DNA of 64,000 nt from Candidatus Poribacteria bacterium (lineage in GTDB: Bacteria > Poribacteria > WGA-4E > WGA-3G), in NCBI GenBank assembly GCA_022825825.1, contig JAJDWA010000062.1:1-64000 (forward strand). The letters run 5' to 3'. This document shows, piece by piece, positions 26,527 through 39,536 of the stretch; position 1 is the stretch's first letter, and each line of letters begins with the position of its first letter. The notes under the pieces are model-generated. The model was not told where the DNA came from, did no database searches, and saw only the letters and a list, made by a program, of their open reading frames with translations. Position numbers and translations under genes: made by a program.

Positions 26527-26633
26527 ATGGTAGATTTTAGAATTATCTGACCTGGACACTCTGTACCCAGCGAGGTTAGGAAACCTCGTCTACCGAGAGA
26601 CGAAAATGTCCATTTATTTTATAATTCACCATA
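26527..26633. repeat. Nested inverted-repeat unit
   Basis: TATGGT near 26527 and ACCATA near 26628 form the outer arms. GGACA (26554-26558) and TGTCC (26607-26611) form the middle arms, and CGAGGTT / AACCTCG (26571-26588) the core hairpin. Similar in plan to the element at 10511-10633. It lies directly before the ribosome binding site of the next gene. Confidence 0.5.
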
Positions 26634-26652
26634 GGTCAAAAAGGAGAATAAA

Positions 26653-27771
26653 ATGTTTAATTCTGTTTTTCACCGCTACTCTCCCTATGTAGCAGGGCTC
26701 ACCGTCCTCTTGCTAATGGCAATATCAATGCCTGTTCTTGCGGAAGGCGAAAAAATCCAATGGGGAATGTCCATTGAGGAAGCTACGAAACAAGCCGCTG
26801 AAACTGGCAAACCGATTATGATGGACTTCTATACAGATTCGTGAGGTTGGTGCGATCGGCTGGATGCCGACACATTTACTGACGCAAACGTCATCACTCT
26901 TTCTGAAAAGTTCATTACCGTCAAGGTAAATCCACAAAACGAGGACTTGCCCATAAACGAGGAAGCGCGTAAAAAGTATGGAGTTACAGGTTTTCCGACA
27001 ATTATGTTTATCGGTCCGGATGGCGGGGTCATCACTAAGAAAGTGGGATACGCTCCACCTGCTCAATTTACACCTGTTATGGAAGAAGCTTTAGAGAAAG
27101 AAGCAGAATTCCAAGCAAAGTTGGCAAAATTAAAGGAAATGCCTGATGATATTACACTAAACCGCGATATTGCGATTCTTTACCTGCAACGTCAACAAAT
27201 CGAAAAAGCGTTGCCGATCGGTGAAAAGATACCGGACGATGTTGAACTGAACCGCGAATTCGGTATTTACTATCTTGGCAAGAAAGAATTTGAAAAAGCA
27301 CTTCTGATTAGCGAAAAGATGCCTGATGATATCAAGCTGAATAATGAATTCGCTATCGCCTACTTACGGCAGGGACAATTAGAAAAAGCGCGCCCGTTCG
27401 GTAAAAAAGTCTTTGAAAAAGACCCAAAGAACGAATCGGGACTTCTTCCTAATTTACACATACAACACGGGATTGCTTACGGCAATCAAATTCGGAACAA
27501 AGCCGAAGATGTTGCAGCAGAAAATACTAAAATGGCTGTGATGCATTTTCAAAAGGTGATTAACACCTATCCCAAAAGCGATATCTTTGAACTTGCTCAG
27601 CTTTATCTCGGTATAACCTATTCAATTTCAAAACAGTACGACAAATCAATTGAAGTGTTTGAGAAATTGGTGAATCATGCAACCGAAGAACGGATGAAGC
27701 AAAGTGCTGAAGCGAATTTGCAACGTGTCAAACAATTGGCTGCGGAAGCCGCGGGTGGAACTGATAATTAA
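26653..27771 (+). CDS. Candidate selenoprotein: thioredoxin-fold/TPR protein with in-frame UGA
   Basis: Read through the TGA at 26842-26844, the gene encodes 372 residues. A signal peptide (hydrophobic 12-30, cleavage after VLA) is followed by a thioredoxin-like domain of the Thioredoxin_7/DsbD-gamma kind (about 38-140), then TPR-type repeats built on EKALPIGEKIPDDVELN-like units (about 150-365). The redox motif reads DFYTDS-U-GWC: the UGA is residue 64, exactly where relatives have the first Cys of CxxC. The second Cys (67) and the cis-proline segment TGFPT (about 112-116) are intact, and the frame is clean on both sides. A hairpin suited to a bacterial SECIS lies just downstream. AAGGAG precedes the ATG. 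The alternative is a nonsense mutation or sequencing error. Confidence 0.75.
26850..26873 (+). promoter_or_regulatory. Candidate bacterial SECIS hairpin
   Basis: TCGGC (26856-26860) pairs with GCCGA (26866-26870) around loop TGGAT. Below it GTG (26850-26852) pairs with CAC (26871-26873) across a three-base CGA bulge. The loop starts 16 bases after the UGA and has G as its second base. Published bacterial SECIS models call for a 16-37 base distance and a G among the first two loop bases; both are met. Confidence 0.6.
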
Positions 27772-32644: not shown

Positions 32645-35602
32645 ATGCCAAAAAGACGCGAAACGACAATCACAAACGAACTGGTGAACATCTTACGCTA
32701 CATGCGCCACGGATGGGAACTCGAAACGGAAGTTAACGCCTTCATTAAAGGCAACAACGAACTTGACGCTATCGTTATTGAACGCGGTAGAGAACCAGTC
32801 GGAATAGAAGCAAAATTTGCCACCACGACTAACGCCAAAAATCTTATTACCCAAGCAGAGGATAGACTTGTTCTTGAACTTGAAACGGAATACCACGTCG
32901 TTGGCAAAACGCTTAATAACGTCATGGCGATCCTATATCCTGACCGATTTAAGACAATGCCAGGAAGGGATATCAATCCACAACTACGTTCTGCGGATGA
33001 CCTCCAGTACAAACTTGTCAATACCGTTGGTGACACCGTTGCACATTTCCCAGAAAACGGATGGGCAACAGGTACAGTCGCGGACATAGCAAATGCGCTC
33101 CGCGTGGGTGCAATGCCGAACTCTCACCTTGAAAATGCAGCAGAAGAGATGGAGAAAAGCGTCAACAAAGCGGCTTATCTACTTGAAGATGCAATCGTTG
33201 AACACCCTGCTATCGGTAAGAAAATTGAAACAATTCTGCACCAAGAGGTCTTTTCTGAGGAAGATTCGTCTGCATCGCGACTCCCCAACGTCCAAACGCT
33301 CCGTATGGCAGCACTGATTATCACCGATGCCTTTGTCTTTCAGAGTTCCCTCGCTGGTAAAGCGGAGATGGAATCTGTTCGTTCTCTCCGTCAACTCCTG
33401 CCGACAATTGATTATGCCGATGTTATTGATGACTGGAACACAATCCTTAAGGTTAACTACCGTCCCATTTTTGAAGATGCGCGTAACCTCGTTGAAGCAC
33501 TTGCTACGGATGACAGACTTGTCAAACATATCTTAAGACTTCTGTGTGAGGCTGCCAAAGACCTTGTTGATACAGGTATCGCGCAGATACATGAGCTCGC
33601 GGGTATCGTATTCCAAAAGTTAATCACTGATAGGAAATACGTGAAGGCAAACTACACTCTACCCGAAAGTGCTGTGTTGCTCTCTACGCTTGTGATGCCC
33701 GAACTGCCGAAAGGCAAACTCCCAAAAGTAGCAGACTTTGCATGCGGTACAGGCGCGCTGCTCAACGGTGTCTATCAACGCATTTTATCGCTGTATGAAC
33801 AATCGGGTGGAAATGGTAGGGATATCCATCAAAAAATGTTAGAGGAGAACCTTGCGGGAGCTGATGTGATGCCGAATGCTACGCACCTTACTGCTGCTGC
33901 ACTTGCGAGTAGATATGCCGATATGAAACTGGGTGGTACGCGTATTCTCACAGCACCCTACGGTAAATTAGAAAATGATGATTACGCGGTTGGTTCACTT
34001 GAATTGCTTGATATGAAGTTATTTGATACGGAGGCTGAGCAGATCGGAGGTGAAGAAAACAGGGTAGTTGACCTCCAGCGGGCATTTCCGTACGAAGAAT
34101 TTAACGTTGTTATTCAGAATCCTCCCTTTACGAAACCGGGTGCTGACCCTGCAGGCATAGATAGTGCAAAATCCCCGTTCCAAGGCACTGACCGACCTCA
34201 AGAATACACGAAAATCATGCAGGCAATACTCAACAAAAAAGTAACACGGGTTGCTGATGGACAAGCAGGGCTTAGCTCATACTTTATAGAACTGGCAGAT
34301 AGGATGCTTAAACGTAAAGGCACAATGGGTTTTATATTGCCTGCTACAGTACTTGCCTCGCCAACTTCGCAAAAGGTACGGGACATGTGGGCGACAGAAT
34401 ACCGCGATGTAGTTGTGATTACTATTGCCGAAGCAAAGGGGACTGATTGTGCTTTCTCTGCCGATACAGACATGGCAGAGTGCATCATCGTAGCAACAAA
34501 AGGAAAAAGCGATAACACGGGACGGGGCAAGTTCGTTTGTCTAAACCAACGTCCACAGAGTCAACTTGAGGCTTTTGAGATTGCAAACCGGATCATCCGC
34601 AGTAACGGTAAATACCAATTAGAAGATGCACCCAGTGGCGGTGATTCGGTTAAAGTTGGAAATGAACTGCTTGGAAACATGCTTGATTGCCCGTTACCTC
34701 GCGGTGAAGGGTGGATTGCAACGCGCGTCAAGTCAATGGCACTTCTCCAATCTGCTCGACGACTGAAGAAGGGCAAATTAGAATTACCGCTGCAAGAGTT
34801 ACAAGAAAAGGTTACTGAGATTCCAATTTGCCAAGTCGGAGATATTGCTACTTTAGGACTTGCTGAGGTTAGGCGCGTGTTTCGCAAAGAGGAAGGGTAT
34901 CAACCCAACGATGAAGGTTATCCATGTTTGTGGAATGCTCAGAGTGAAGTCCAAAGGTCAATGTTAGTGCTTCCAGATTCACGTGCGATTCCCCTTCCGA
35001 AAGCTGAAATTGCAGTACAGAAGCGGGTAGATCAAAACAGCAGAACCCACTACAACATGGTACCAAGATTCACTGCTTGCTCAAATATAGTTCTTTTCAC
35101 TGAACAACCTGCTATTGGTCCAACTCTAATAACAAATGTAGCTTTTGAAAATCCACGACATGAAATCCCTTGGACACTGTGGTGTAATTCAACTTTAGGA
35201 ATTTTCTGTCACTGGATGCATAGTGGCAAACAAACTGCTGGACGTGGGAAATTAAGGTTAACAACATTAAGAAGCATGCCAACGCTGGATGTGCGTGAAC
35301 TCTCCGATGAGGCATTGGCAAACGCTGACGCAATCTTTGATCGGTTGAAATATAAGCGGATGCTGCCTGTCAATGAATGCGCTCATGATCCTGTGCGCGC
35401 GGAATTAGATCGTTCTCTGCTAACTGATGTGTTGGGCATTACAAGTGATAACGTGTTAGAGTCTATGCAGACTCTGCGTGAGATGCTCTGCGCTGAACCG
35501 AGTATCCACGGTGGGAAGCAGTCTACATGTGATCTGGATGCGGAGTTGGAGGGGCTTAAGCGGAAGGGAATTGCTTTTCCGAGTTGGTATGTTGAGGAGT
35601 AA
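32645..35602 (+). CDS. Single-chain restriction nuclease / N6-adenine DNA methyltransferase
   Basis: 985 residues. The N-terminal ~100 residues look like a PD-(D/E)xK nuclease: Asp41 in NNELDAIVIE, then Glu55-Ala-Lys57 in VGIEAKF. A helical region follows (about 150-340). The gamma-class N6-adenine methyltransferase core has SAM motif I DFACGTG (about 364-370) and catalytic motif IV NPPF (about 491-494). The C-terminal third (about 700-950) probably recognises the target; it has one TRD-like unit with FCHWMHSGKQTAGRGKLRLT (in pieces). This is a type IIG-like arrangement, with cutting and modification in one chain. It opens the accessory island; the NTPase gene follows after 121 bases. Whether it cuts or only modifies needs testing. 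Confidence 0.75.
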   Translation: MPKRRETTITNELVNILRYMRHGWELETEVNAFIKGNNELDAIVIERGREPVGIEAKFATTTNAKNLITQAEDRLVLELETEYHVVGKTLNNVMAILYPDRFKTMPGRDINPQLRSADDLQYKLVNTVGDTVAHFPENGWATGTVADIANALRVGAMPNSHLENAAEEMEKSVNKAAYLLEDAIVEHPAIGKKIETILHQEVFSEEDSSASRLPNVQTLRMAALIITDAFVFQSSLAGKAEMESVRSLRQLLPTIDYADVIDDWNTILKVNYRPIFEDARNLVEALATDDRLVKHILRLLCEAAKDLVDTGIAQIHELAGIVFQKLITDRKYVKANYTLPESAVLLSTLVMPELPKGKLPKVADFACGTGALLNGVYQRILSLYEQSGGNGRDIHQKMLEENLAGADVMPNATHLTAAALASRYADMKLGGTRILTAPYGKLENDDYAVGSLELLDMKLFDTEAEQIGGEENRVVDLQRAFPYEEFNVVIQNPPFTKPGADPAGIDSAKSPFQGTDRPQEYTKIMQAILNKKVTRVADGQAGLSSYFIELADRMLKRKGTMGFILPATVLASPTSQKVRDMWATEYRDVVVITIAEAKGTDCAFSADTDMAECIIVATKGKSDNTGRGKFVCLNQRPQSQLEAFEIANRIIRSNGKYQLEDAPSGGDSVKVGNELLGNMLDCPLPRGEGWIATRVKSMALLQSARRLKKGKLELPLQELQEKVTEIPICQVGDIATLGLAEVRRVFRKEEGYQPNDEGYPCLWNAQSEVQRSMLVLPDSRAIPLPKAEIAVQKRVDQNSRTHYNMVPRFTACSNIVLFTEQPAIGPTLITNVAFENPRHEIPWTLWCNSTLGIFCHWMHSGKQTAGRGKLRLTTLRSMPTLDVRELSDEALANADAIFDRLKYKRMLPVNECAHDPVRAELDRSLLTDVLGITSDNVLESMQTLREMLCAEPSIHGGKQSTCDLDAELEGLKRKGIAFPSWYVEE

Positions 35603-35723
35603 ATTTAAGAACTCTACAACGAAAATTAAATACAGTGCTGAGCGAATTGCTTTCATAAAGGTCTTTGACATAGGATGCGAAATGTGGTATCCTATTTATA
35701 TCTTTAAACTTCGGAGATATATA

Positions 35724-38700
35724 ATGAATCGTGATACTATTTCCACGGTTAAACCTGAACATCTTAGTGTACTTGGTCCGTCAGAATCTGTTCTGTTTTT
35801 CAGGGATTTGCTCTGGGCAGAAGCACGTCGATTAGGTCCAGGGTCCTGCAAGATTGACGTTCCGAGCAAAATCAATGTTGCAGACGGTGGAATTGATGCT
35901 ACCGTTGATGCAGACTCATCTGTGCCAGAGAGCGAGATAATTAGTCCTGGTAAAAATGGTTACCAAATTAAATCGGGAACTGAATTTAAACCGTGGCAGA
36001 TATCGCAGATCAGGAAAGAACTCTTTGGCGGTACAAGAACCCAGATAACTAAAGATAACCTTGGACTAAGTATTCACGCTTGCCTTAGCGCAGGTGATAC
36101 CAATGGCACGTACGTCTTAGTCTGTACTGGAATCAACCTGAGTAAATCACAAACGAACAAGGCCCGATCTCACATTGAAGAATGTTTTAAGCAGTGCGGT
36201 TATCAGAATCCCAAAGTCAAGGTTTGGAGTCAAGACGATTTGATTAATTTTCTTCAGGAATTCCCATTGTTGGAATTAAGCCTCAAGGGACTCCGTGAAG
36301 AGAATTTTAAAACACATCATAATTGGGCACAATATTCAGATCTGCAAGTTCCATTTGTGCCGGGACAACTACAAAGCGAACTTATTGAAAAAATACAAAA
36401 TGATTTACGGAGAGACGACTATCCAGTACACATTCGGGTGTGGGGAGAACCTGGCATCGGTAAAACAAGGTTGGTTTTTGAAGCCACAAATGTAGAAGAT
36501 TTATCTCCACATATTATTTATTCCCGCTCAGCTGCCCAGTTTGAATCCAGCGTTTTGATGAATGAAATACGCTTTAACGACAATCTTTCTGCCATTGTAG
36601 TGATTGACGAATGCGATCCGAGCAGGCGGTCTCGTATTTGGTATGATCTGCAACATTGTAGCCCAAGGATTAAATTAATCACTATTTATAATGATTATGA
36701 GGAAAAGTCTGGAGGTATTACTTACTATGATATGCCGCCTTTAGCGCATGAACAGATTCGTGACATCATGATTCAAGAGTATGAAATACCATCAGAGCAA
36801 GTAGACCGATGGGCAGAACTCTGTGATGGTTCACCGAGAGTTGCGCATGTCATTGGTTGGAACTTAGTGAATTACCCAGCAGATGTACTCAAAATACCTA
36901 GTACAGTTGATATTTGGGAACGTTATATTGCTGCAGGTGATCAAGACAGCGAAAAGACAGAGCGCCGACGGGTGGTGCTTCAACATCTTGCACTTTTTAA
37001 ACGTTTTGATTATGGAATTCAAGTTCAAACTATAGCACAAATGGTGGAGAAGGCAAATTCAGACATCACTTCATACAAATTTGAAGAGATCATCTACGAG
37101 CTTAAAGAGCGGAAAATACTTCAGGGCGATCCTACGCTTTACATAACACCAAAAGCCTTACATATTAAATTATGGGCACAGTGGTGGGAAAGGCATTATA
37201 AGGGATTCAACCTTGAAAGGTTTACCGAAGGCTTAAATCCAAAATTGGTTGAGTGGTTCTATGAGATGTTTAAGTATGCTGCTGAGTCAGAGGCAGCATC
37301 TAAAATTGTCAAAACTCTTCTTGGTCCTGATGGTCCATTTCAAGATAACGAATATTTGAAGACAAGGCTGGGTAGCCGTTTTTTTCTCGCACTGACTGAA
37401 GCAGATCCCAAATCAGCCTTAAGATGCCTGATGCTAACGTTAGGGACATGGGATACGGAAAATCTTTTGCAATTCACTATTGGACGACGAGATGTGATAT
37501 GGGCACTTGAAAAGATTGCTATATGGCGTGAGTTTTTTGTTGATGCCGCGCGGTTACTCCTCGCCCTCGGCGAAGCTGAAAATGAAAGTTATTCAAACAA
37601 TGCCAGCGGTGTATTCGCCGGACTTTTTTCGCCAGGAAGTGGTAGAGTAGCTCCAACCGAAGCGTCTCCTGCAGAACGTTTACCTGTTTTGAAAGAAACA
37701 TTTGAATCGGATTCAAAAGAACGCCGTGCACTTGCCTTGAAAGCTTGTAATGCTGCGTTAGAGTCAGAGCACTTCGTGTGGGGAGTGGGTGCTGAATATC
37801 AAGGGTTGCGCAATGCCCCTAAACTTTGGAAACCCGAAACGTACAGTGAACTTTGGGAGGCTTACCGTCAGGTGTGGCAACTTCTATCCGAACAATTAAC
37901 CCGTTTGTCTCAAGATGAGTGTAAAGAGGTCGTAGATATTCTCCTCGGACGTGCGGAAGCACTTGCGAAAATTCCGAATCTGAGTGATATGGTTGTGGAT
38001 ACGGTGATAACAATTGTCGCCAAAGGGTATGTGAGTCAAAAGGAGGTTATTGAAACAATAAACCGCATCTTGTACTATGATGACAGCTATGACAACAACC
38101 TTCCTATTGAGACACGACAACGTTTTGAACAACTTCAAGGTGAATTAGTTGGTTCTGACTTTCATTCCCTGATGCAGCGGTATGTCGGAATGGATTTACT
38201 TGAAGATCATCTTGAAACAAACAAAGATGGAGTAGATCGGGTACAGCTTCATCTTGAAAAACTTGCCCAGCAAGCCGCTGAGGATCCAACACGTTTGCAA
38301 GCCGAACTCTCGTGGCTTGTAACAACTGAGGCAAAAAATGGATACAAGTTTGGATATGAACTTGGAGAGAGAGACAACGGTTTTTGCCTTCTGCCAATAC
38401 TTCTGGATGCCCAAAGAAACGCAGTTGACAATGCAAGTGTCTATTTTCTGGGAGGCTATTTCCGTGTAATCTTTGAGAAAGACCTGCCACAGTGGGAAGA
38501 ACAACTTGACGCATTGGTTGAAGATACGAAACTGAATGTGATGATTCCAGATCTCACGCATCGTTCAGGTTTGACAGACCGAGCGGGTATACGCCTTCTT
38601 AATCTCGCCCAAAATGGCATCATTGGTATTAATCACTTTGGCACTTTTGTTTATGGCAAAGTCATTGAAAACCTATCTGAGAAGGTATTCACAACGTGGA

Positions 38701-39536
38701 TTGAGTTTTTACTGAGTTTCATGGACAAATCTGCTATTTCAATCGCTTTGAATCTTTACCATCGCTATTACGATCACCGGAAATCAAATATAGTTTTATC
38801 GCGCGATCTAACATTTAGGTTGCTCACGCATCCACTGCTATTTGGAGAGTTAGACAAAGGTCTGTTTAATCAAATGACAGATTATCATTGGACAGAAATT
38901 GGAAAAGAGTTTGTGCAACTCTATCCAGAAAGAAATTTGGAACTTGCCAAAATAATGCTTGCTCACTTTGGTGAAAAAAGATCTATAGTTGGTAATTACT
39001 CAAAAACTTGTTCTGTGTTAACAGAATTAATGAAACAGAATCCTACAAAACTTTGGGAGTCCGTTAGCAAACACTTAGAGACACGAGATAATTTTTTAAG
39101 GATGTTTGCTCTTGAAAAATGGTTAAGAGAAGCGGATATTTCTACAGCAGAAAAAGAAAGAGGGGCACTAACACTCATTCCACGCGAAAAAATCTGGGAA
39201 TGGGTTGATGGCGACGTAGAAAATCGCGCAGAATATACAGCCTTTAGTCTTATTCCTAAAAAACACTTAGCAGAAGAATGGAAAACTTCTCTGGTGCGGG
39301 CATTTCTCAAACGTTATGGGATGCGAGAAAATGTCCGCCGCGCTTTGATGGCGAATTATCTGACAGGTGTGTGGGCGGGCCCTGTAAGTTCACACTATGA
39401 AAGAAAGAAACAAGATCTGCTGCGAATTAAGAACATTGAAAACGACAAAGATATAAAACTCTGGATTGACAACTTTGTAGATGGTTTAGAAAAAGAGATT
39501 GAGCGCGCAAAAGTTGAGGAAGAAAGAGAGTTTTAG
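35724..39536 (+). CDS. Nuclease-STAND-type NTPase, Avs-like defence candidate
   Basis: 1270 residues from ATG 35724, which has GGAGAT upstream; the frame is open from 35478, overlapping the previous gene, without support. The N-terminal ~150 residues resemble an Mrr/Cap4-type PD-(D/E)xK nuclease: GGIDA (about 55-59), then YQIKSG (about 80-85) with the catalytic Q-x-K. A P-loop NTPase follows: Walker A GEPGIGKT (about 241-248), Walker B VVIDECD (about 292-298), then a winged-helix-like part. About 700 C-terminal residues are helical and repeat-like, a plausible sensor. This order (effector nuclease, STAND ATPase, helical sensor) matches antiviral STAND (Avs) proteins. Assignment is by architecture only; no specific Avs type is claimed. 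Confidence 0.65.
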   Translation: MNRDTISTVKPEHLSVLGPSESVLFFRDLLWAEARRLGPGSCKIDVPSKINVADGGIDATVDADSSVPESEIISPGKNGYQIKSGTEFKPWQISQIRKELFGGTRTQITKDNLGLSIHACLSAGDTNGTYVLVCTGINLSKSQTNKARSHIEECFKQCGYQNPKVKVWSQDDLINFLQEFPLLELSLKGLREENFKTHHNWAQYSDLQVPFVPGQLQSELIEKIQNDLRRDDYPVHIRVWGEPGIGKTRLVFEATNVEDLSPHIIYSRSAAQFESSVLMNEIRFNDNLSAIVVIDECDPSRRSRIWYDLQHCSPRIKLITIYNDYEEKSGGITYYDMPPLAHEQIRDIMIQEYEIPSEQVDRWAELCDGSPRVAHVIGWNLVNYPADVLKIPSTVDIWERYIAAGDQDSEKTERRRVVLQHLALFKRFDYGIQVQTIAQMVEKANSDITSYKFEEIIYELKERKILQGDPTLYITPKALHIKLWAQWWERHYKGFNLERFTEGLNPKLVEWFYEMFKYAAESEAASKIVKTLLGPDGPFQDNEYLKTRLGSRFFLALTEADPKSALRCLMLTLGTWDTENLLQFTIGRRDVIWALEKIAIWREFFVDAARLLLALGEAENESYSNNASGVFAGLFSPGSGRVAPTEASPAERLPVLKETFESDSKERRALALKACNAALESEHFVWGVGAEYQGLRNAPKLWKPETYSELWEAYRQVWQLLSEQLTRLSQDECKEVVDILLGRAEALAKIPNLSDMVVDTVITIVAKGYVSQKEVIETINRILYYDDSYDNNLPIETRQRFEQLQGELVGSDFHSLMQRYVGMDLLEDHLETNKDGVDRVQLHLEKLAQQAAEDPTRLQAELSWLVTTEAKNGYKFGYELGERDNGFCLLPILLDAQRNAVDNASVYFLGGYFRVIFEKDLPQWEEQLDALVEDTKLNVMIPDLTHRSGLTDRAGIRLLNLAQNGIIGINHFGTFVYGKVIENLSEKVFTTWIEFLLSFMDKSAISIALNLYHRYYDHRKSNIVLSRDLTFRLLTHPLLFGELDKGLFNQMTDYHWTEIGKEFVQLYPERNLELAKIMLAHFGEKRSIVGNYSKTCSVLTELMKQNPTKLWESVSKHLETRDNFLRMFALEKWLREADISTAEKERGALTLIPREKIWEWVDGDVENRAEYTAFSLIPKKHLAEEWKTSLVRAFLKRYGMRENVRRALMANYLTGVWAGPVSSHYERKKQDLLRIKNIENDKDIKLWIDNFVDGLEKEIERAKVEEEREF

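Follow-up and report, generated by a model that had tools for sequence, protein, structure and literature searches.

A predicted selenoprotein of Poribacteria with a UxxC thioredoxin domain and tetratricopeptide repeats

Poribacteria, a group known from marine sponges, carry a gene that very probably encodes a selenoprotein, a redox protein with an in-frame UGA read as selenocysteine (Sec); we put the probability of this reading at about 0.88. The gene lies in the window, the whole stretch of 64,000 nucleotides analysed here. Conservation of the UGA, a bacterial SECIS element, the Sec machinery of the genome, coding constraint before and after the UGA, and the thioredoxin and TPR folds of the product together lead to this assignment. 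As far as sequence comparison goes, a UGA that specifies Sec with the help of a bacterial SECIS is very well supported, and Sec would be expected to be inserted in the cell. The features are as follows.

26642..26646, + strand: Shine-Dalgarno-like AGGAG ahead of the ATG, by eye
26653..27771, + strand: predicted selenoprotein gene for a probably exported thioredoxin-TPR protein, 372 residues with UGA as Sec
26653..26742, + strand: probable signal peptide, residues 1–30, ending ...PVLA-EG, by eye; a low-confidence helix in the AlphaFold2 model
26794..27078, + strand: Thioredoxin_2 / Thioredoxin_7 domain, residues 48–142, from Pfam, the AlphaFold2 model and the fold search
26842..26844, + strand: UGA codon, predicted Sec64, first position of UGWC, from translation and alignments
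26850..26873, + strand: predicted SECIS stem-loop, outer limits, from sequence and folding
26857..26869, + strand: predicted SECIS core CGGC-UGGAU-GCCG with loop 26861–26865, nearly invariant; its four pairs covary in 83 distinct Sec-form sequences
27124..27732, + strand: TPR / helical-repeat region, residues ~158–360, from Pfam TPR families and AlphaFold2 helices

The earlier note described a frame of 63 codons, a TGA at nt 26842–26844 and 308 further codons in the same frame. Translation of nt 26653–27771 with TGA as U confirms this, giving a 372-residue product that contains U64 and ends at TAA; the TGA, in the motif DFYTDS-U-GWC, is the only one in the frame. Ten TGA junctions in the 64-kb window join at least 50 open codons to at least 80 further ones. 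The one at 26842–26844 is the sole junction in a UxxC context, and its downstream frame is the longest of the ten, the next having 229 codons. The UGA was also said to fall on the first Cys of a CxxC whose second Cys and cis-Pro are intact, and both residues, Cys67 and Pro115 (cis-Pro position, FPT), prove invariant in 22 sequences of the genus and in a 40-sequence alignment.

When U is replaced by C, Pfam places Thioredoxin_2 (PF13098) on residues 48–142 at 6.8e-15 and 55.7 bits (cut-off 27), Thioredox_DsbH matches at 6.5e-11, and several TPR families match C-terminal of the Thioredoxin_2 domain. Searched as separate pieces, the first 63 residues match Thioredoxin_7 at 0.012 and the remainder matches Thioredoxin_2 at 5.6e-8. 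In each of seven pairwise comparisons, third codon positions differ most often, both 5′ and 3′ of the UGA. This excess 3′ of the UGA indicates that the sequence past it is constrained as coding DNA in the unchanged frame. The product is probably exported, judging by eye from its signal-peptide-like N-terminus. Several Neomarinimicrobiota homologues have N-termini that look lipoprotein-like by eye.

The AlphaFold2 model, built from 40 sequences (pLDDT 92, pTM 0.81), consists of a thioredoxin fold, a long helix and a helical solenoid. Pfam, AlphaFold2 and Foldseek thus agree on the combination of thioredoxin fold and TPRs that had been read from the sequence. Foldseek against the PDB ranks E. 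coli YbbN (3qou) first at E 2.5e-7, with TMq 0.21 and an rmsd of 22 over the whole chain. DsbH and DsbD-gamma follow, matching the thioredoxin domain with TMt 0.68–0.78, and TPR proteins stand further down. Among NCBIfam models, those for TsoB, DsbD and DsbH are matched, all far under their cut-offs.

From these folds we give roughly even odds to an extracytoplasmic thiol-disulfide reductase that is fed by DsbD and binds clients through its TPRs; here we infer the redox direction, the electron donor and the client binding. SelB with Sec-tRNA, bound to the stem-loop a few bases downstream, would read the UGA at codon 64 and give a 372-residue protein with Sec as the first residue of UGWC. Outside the cytoplasm, the thioredoxin domain, closest to the DsbD-gamma and DsbH folds, would reduce or isomerise disulfides or oxidised thiols; Sec64 would be the attacking and Cys67 the resolving residue. 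Re-reduction would probably fall to the DsbD encoded in the same genome, and the TPR solenoid would hold client proteins. A DsbD-like protein of the source genome comprises an N-terminal domain, a membrane part and a thioredoxin end (by eye and from its similarity to the query), and is a plausible electron donor. The gene for this DsbD-like protein (L038) overlaps the next one, which by eye encodes a membrane-anchored TPR-like protein. Genes for a DsbD-like and a membrane-anchored TPR-like protein likewise lie side by side in another genome of the genus (L026 of G012).

The rival view of function is that the protein is a chaperedoxin with Sec, similar to CnoX/YbbN and placed outside the cytoplasm, whose TPRs would act as a holdase and whose Sec would protect or repair oxidised cysteines of clients. 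YbbN, the top PDB match (E 2.5e-7), is a thioredoxin domain fused to TPRs. According to the available text of PMC8129009 and PMC6282202, CnoX combines a thioredoxin domain and TPRs with holdase and redox-protective activity, and the Caulobacter CnoX is a reductase. However, the whole-chain superposition on YbbN is poor, the matches to the thioredoxin domain after YbbN are DsbH and DsbD-gamma, and CnoX works with GroEL in the cytoplasm whereas the Poribacteria protein is seemingly exported, by eye. We consider a chaperedoxin function unlikely, though it deserves to be kept in mind beside the DsbD-fed reductase.

The predicted hairpin core, CGGCUGGAUGCCG, lies 13–25 nt past the UGA, and its synonymous sites are nearly fixed. 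The earlier note had drawn a hairpin at 26850–26873 with its loop 16 nt after the UGA and a G as second loop base. The window copy has this spacing, carries G at loop positions 2 and 3, and folds at −10.7 kcal/mol over a 30-nt stretch. The bSECIS model, as set out in the available text of PMC13188914, has a loop of 3–9 nt, a stem of 4–16 bp, G in the first two loop positions, a spacing of 16–37 and an MFE of −7.5 or lower, and the window hairpin lies within all of these limits. Its folding energy alone is modestly unusual (z −1.88; 9 of 200 shuffles equally good), so the case for a SECIS had to rest on comparison. Rfam gave four matches on the locus up to E 10, all far under the gathering scores and irrelevant. 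The pattern TGA..CGGCTGGNTGCCG has a single match in the source genome, the selenoprotein gene itself, and thus can not be used to list other selenoproteins.

In a wider set of 66 copies, 64 have TGA at the site and two have TGT. The residues over the hairpin, R69-L70-D71-A72 (RLDA), are the same in all 64 TGA forms, a constancy that is biased by the search, as C[KD]RLDA[DE]T[FY] was one of two peptide patterns of the homologue scan. The choice of codons is free of that bias, and is CGG in 63/64, CTG in 64/64, GAT in 62/64 and GCC in 63/64, a uniformity that reflects shared ancestry in part. A Leu 13 codons beyond the hairpin is encoded by CTG in 1 of 47 copies. Outside the hairpin, in 22 genes of the genus, CGG makes up 17.6% of Arg codons, CTG 14.4% of Leu codons and GCC 9.4% of Ala codons. 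Both Cys forms in the wider set, L143 (labelled Planctomycetota) and L145 (labelled Bacteroidia), use other codons at the hairpin site. L144, a TGA form, folds at only −2.9 kcal/mol, and some homologues miss the MFE limit.

Covariation was scored on 83 distinct Sec-form sequences, obtained from 103 by merging identical 36-nt rows. All four pairs have changed on both sides, a number reached by 1 of 500 shuffles. Cells with such changes number 13 against a mean of 1.1, and 97.3% of cells are paired. The covariation score is 0.191 against a shuffle mean of 0.099, was reached by none of the 500 shuffles, and drops to between 0.001 and 0.082 when the alignment is slid by 1 to 3 columns. Kinship alone can push sequences past shuffles without any structure, and better controls are provided by the slid versions and the Cys forms.

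The Cys comparison comes from Neomarinimicrobiota, the phylum of G086, from which L137 derives. At 1e-20 the family profile matches 129 of its 245 genomes, part of them only through the thioredoxin domain of a DsbD-like protein. Sixty copies, a non-random and mostly full-length choice among the matches listed, comprise 48 with TGA and 12 with TGC or TGT. Nine of the 60 stretches fall outside the motif and were excluded from the hairpin counts and the covariation alignment; on looser inspection all nine have U at the thioredoxin site. All four core pairs are kept in 36 of the 39 parsed Sec forms versus 2 of the 12 Cys forms. The variants that keep four pairs in TGA forms include CGUU-AACG, CGGU-ACCG, CAGC-GCUG, CGAC-GUCG and UGGC-GCCA. 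The hairpin is absent from the TGA forms L215 and L218, and L200 has three of four pairs. Other residues follow the UxxC in L215, L218, L205, L207, L208, L214, L216 and L217; these divergent TGA forms may use a different SECIS or make up a distinct subfamily. Two Cys forms, L163 (TGT) and L177 (TGC), have a 13-nt core identical to that of the window, and the family-profile match behind L177 also contains one TAA. The hairpin in these two may be left over from a recent change of Sec to Cys. A wider proposal, that an extracytoplasmic family of chaperedoxins with Sec spans Poribacteria and Neomarinimicrobiota and that a SECIS nearly fixed across both phyla dictates the RLDA behind the active site, appears doubtful to us.

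The earlier note had also pointed to selA, selB, selC and selD, and to homologues with Cys at residue 64, as things to look for. Cys homologues exist, as given above, and all four genes are in the source genome. Its tRNA-Sec scores 78.7 bits against a gathering score of 47, and ARAGORN likewise reports a tRNA-SeC with anticodon tca. Another 17 matches in the genome are under the cut-off, and all 14 control genomes have some match, five of them above the cut-off; therefore only the top match was counted. The selB gene adjoins the tRNA-Sec gene. The selA and selD matches reach 530 and 372 bits, and selD (L050, C51:57412-58338) itself has an in-frame TGA (GUASK).

Within the genus, 15 of the 18 genomes have a full selA, and selB and selD are each above the cut-off in 16, every such selD having one TGA. 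G006 (95% complete) has the gene and no selA match, and in G010 (96%) selD is not above the cut-off; we take both as gaps of draft assemblies, which is unproven. Across the phylum, 75 of 84 genomes have a selB match at 1e-80; among the 55 with at least 90% completeness and at most 5% contamination, 54 do. The lone exception, G021, likewise lacks a gene match at 1e-20. Six genomes have the gene without a selB match at 1e-80 (G001, G004, G041, G047, G058 and G059), all of them at most 83% complete. Eight have selB and no gene match at 1e-20 (G018, G019, G022–G026 and G028), and G012 has selB with a gene match that is only DsbD-like. Such selB-bearing genomes may have other selenoproteins. Outside Poribacteria, tRNA-Sec is matched at 1e-8 in 8 of 13 genomes, namely 7 of 11 with the TGA form and 1 of 2 with the Cys form.

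The gene with its one TGA is present in 17 of the 18 genomes of the genus. In the eighteenth, G012, there is no orthologue, and the match is the thioredoxin end of a DsbD-like protein. At 1e-20, 73 of the 84 genomes of the phylum have a match and 72 have a match holding one TGA. The TGA-bearing gene belongs to 71 of the 72 genomes of the same order and to one genome (G029) elsewhere in the class. A second TGA-bearing thioredoxin-TPR gene, probably a paralogue, occurs in six genomes of the genus (L022, L027–L031) and stands in tandem with the first in G005. L139, labelled Gammaproteobacteria, encodes a protein that by eye is very close to that of L134, labelled FCB group, and is possibly a misbinned contig.

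Could the UGA have another meaning? The frame is open whatever the UGA means, and decoding as another amino acid (a general recoding with UGA as Trp or Gly) or leaky readthrough would also carry translation across it. TGA terminates 8 of the 40 ORFs of at least 200 residues in the window, showing that it is a stop in the source genome. The gene, moreover, has a single TGA, set on a redox Cys position at which some homologues do have Cys, and the genome encodes a tRNA-Sec with anticodon tca. General recoding was therefore rejected. Decoding as another amino acid or leaky readthrough is thus very improbable. The chance of a pseudogene or a sequencing error, that is, a nonsense mutation at a Cys codon beside a coincidental hairpin, is slighter still. 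A Cys-to-stop change is an ordinary source of an in-frame TGA, and TGC and TGT do occur in homologues. Yet all 53 of the 53 aligned Poribacteria copies, counting the window and the paralogues, have TGA at residue 64, relatives keep the frame as well as the TGA where decay had been looked for, and the downstream constraint, the covarying hairpin and the full Sec machinery speak against it. Dozens of separate assemblies share this TGA, so a sequencing error is untenable. Both were rejected.

Several observations concern the surroundings of the gene. The gene order around it is conserved: among 53 loci (52 from Poribacteria and L134), mnmE lies upstream in 37 and a convergent RluB-like gene downstream in 38, and several loci end short of these genes. 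The names mnmE, jag, RluB-like, DsbD and lipA, for neighbours and for genes of the source genome, are presumed from a look at the sequences. Directly upstream of the selenoprotein gene, at 26570–26589, is the palindrome GCGAGGTTNNNNAACCTCG. Exact matches in the source genome number 59 forward and 56 reverse, largely the same places on both strands, and its reversed control pattern has none; it is a REP-like dispersed repeat. Two large ORFs at 32645–39536, of 985 residues (NPPF methylase-like motif by eye) and 1352 residues (P-loop-like motif by eye), are possibly a restriction or defence pair. A PADLOC search gave no match.

The gene offers one concrete candidate for a selenoprotein product. 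If annotation treats its TGA as a terminator, a protein carried by nearly the whole order is missed. The Sec reading would add the thioredoxin-TPR architecture to the predicted selenoproteins, and in uncultured bacteria it would connect selenium with protein thiols outside the cytoplasm. Compensatory variants of the SECIS occur naturally, as do Cys counterparts, of which two retain the hairpin; this makes Sec-to-Cys exchange and SelB recognition testable.

Among known proteins, DsbD-gamma and DsbH share the fold of the thioredoxin domain (TMt 0.68–0.78). DsbD-gamma is part of a membrane protein, and to our knowledge the solved DsbD-gamma and DsbH proteins have neither Sec nor TPRs. CnoX/YbbN (3qou) has an N-terminal thioredoxin domain and C-terminal TPRs, the same order as in the Poribacteria protein. 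It acts with GroEL in the E. coli cytoplasm and has SxxC there, and the available text of PMC8129009 and PMC6282202 mentions no Sec form.

TsoB, a rhodanese/DsbD fusion-like selenoprotein (NF045694), is the top NCBIfam match at 1.3e-20, over profile positions 438–570 of 572, with 73.1 bits against a cut-off of 805. It has two Sec in UxxxxU according to the available text of PMC13188914, versus the single UxxC here. The Trx7/PDZ selenoprotein (NF041199) is matched at 28.2 bits against a cut-off of 300, and its described motif is CxxU where the present one is UxxC.

The earlier note regarded the combination as not a standard selenoprotein family, which holds for the architecture and not for the domain. 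A literature search that covered few subscription journals found no published description of a thioredoxin-TPR selenoprotein; the main text of PMC13188914 contains none of the words tetratricopeptide, TPR or Poribacteria, and the available text of two metagenome surveys, one of them PMC2398784, has neither TPR nor tetratricopeptide. Sec in a UxxC thioredoxin_2 or DsbD-gamma-like domain, by contrast, is already known from listed families, so the architecture is the part not found in print. Table 1 of PMC13188914 lists a predicted family 'Thiol:disulfide interchange protein' (PF13098, UxxC; representative WP_011366075.1), and Table 2 of the GOS survey (PMC2398784) lists 'Trx-like 2' (cd02953). 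Both share the Pfam domain and the UxxC motif with the Poribacteria protein but have no TPR part in their table rows, a comparison by description only. 'Trx-like 3' of the GOS survey (UxxC; 212 sequences, with higher abundance in marine samples) resembles the present family, again by description only, in being marine, UxxC-bearing and thioredoxin-like with a weak domain match, and it may include the Neomarinimicrobiota branch.
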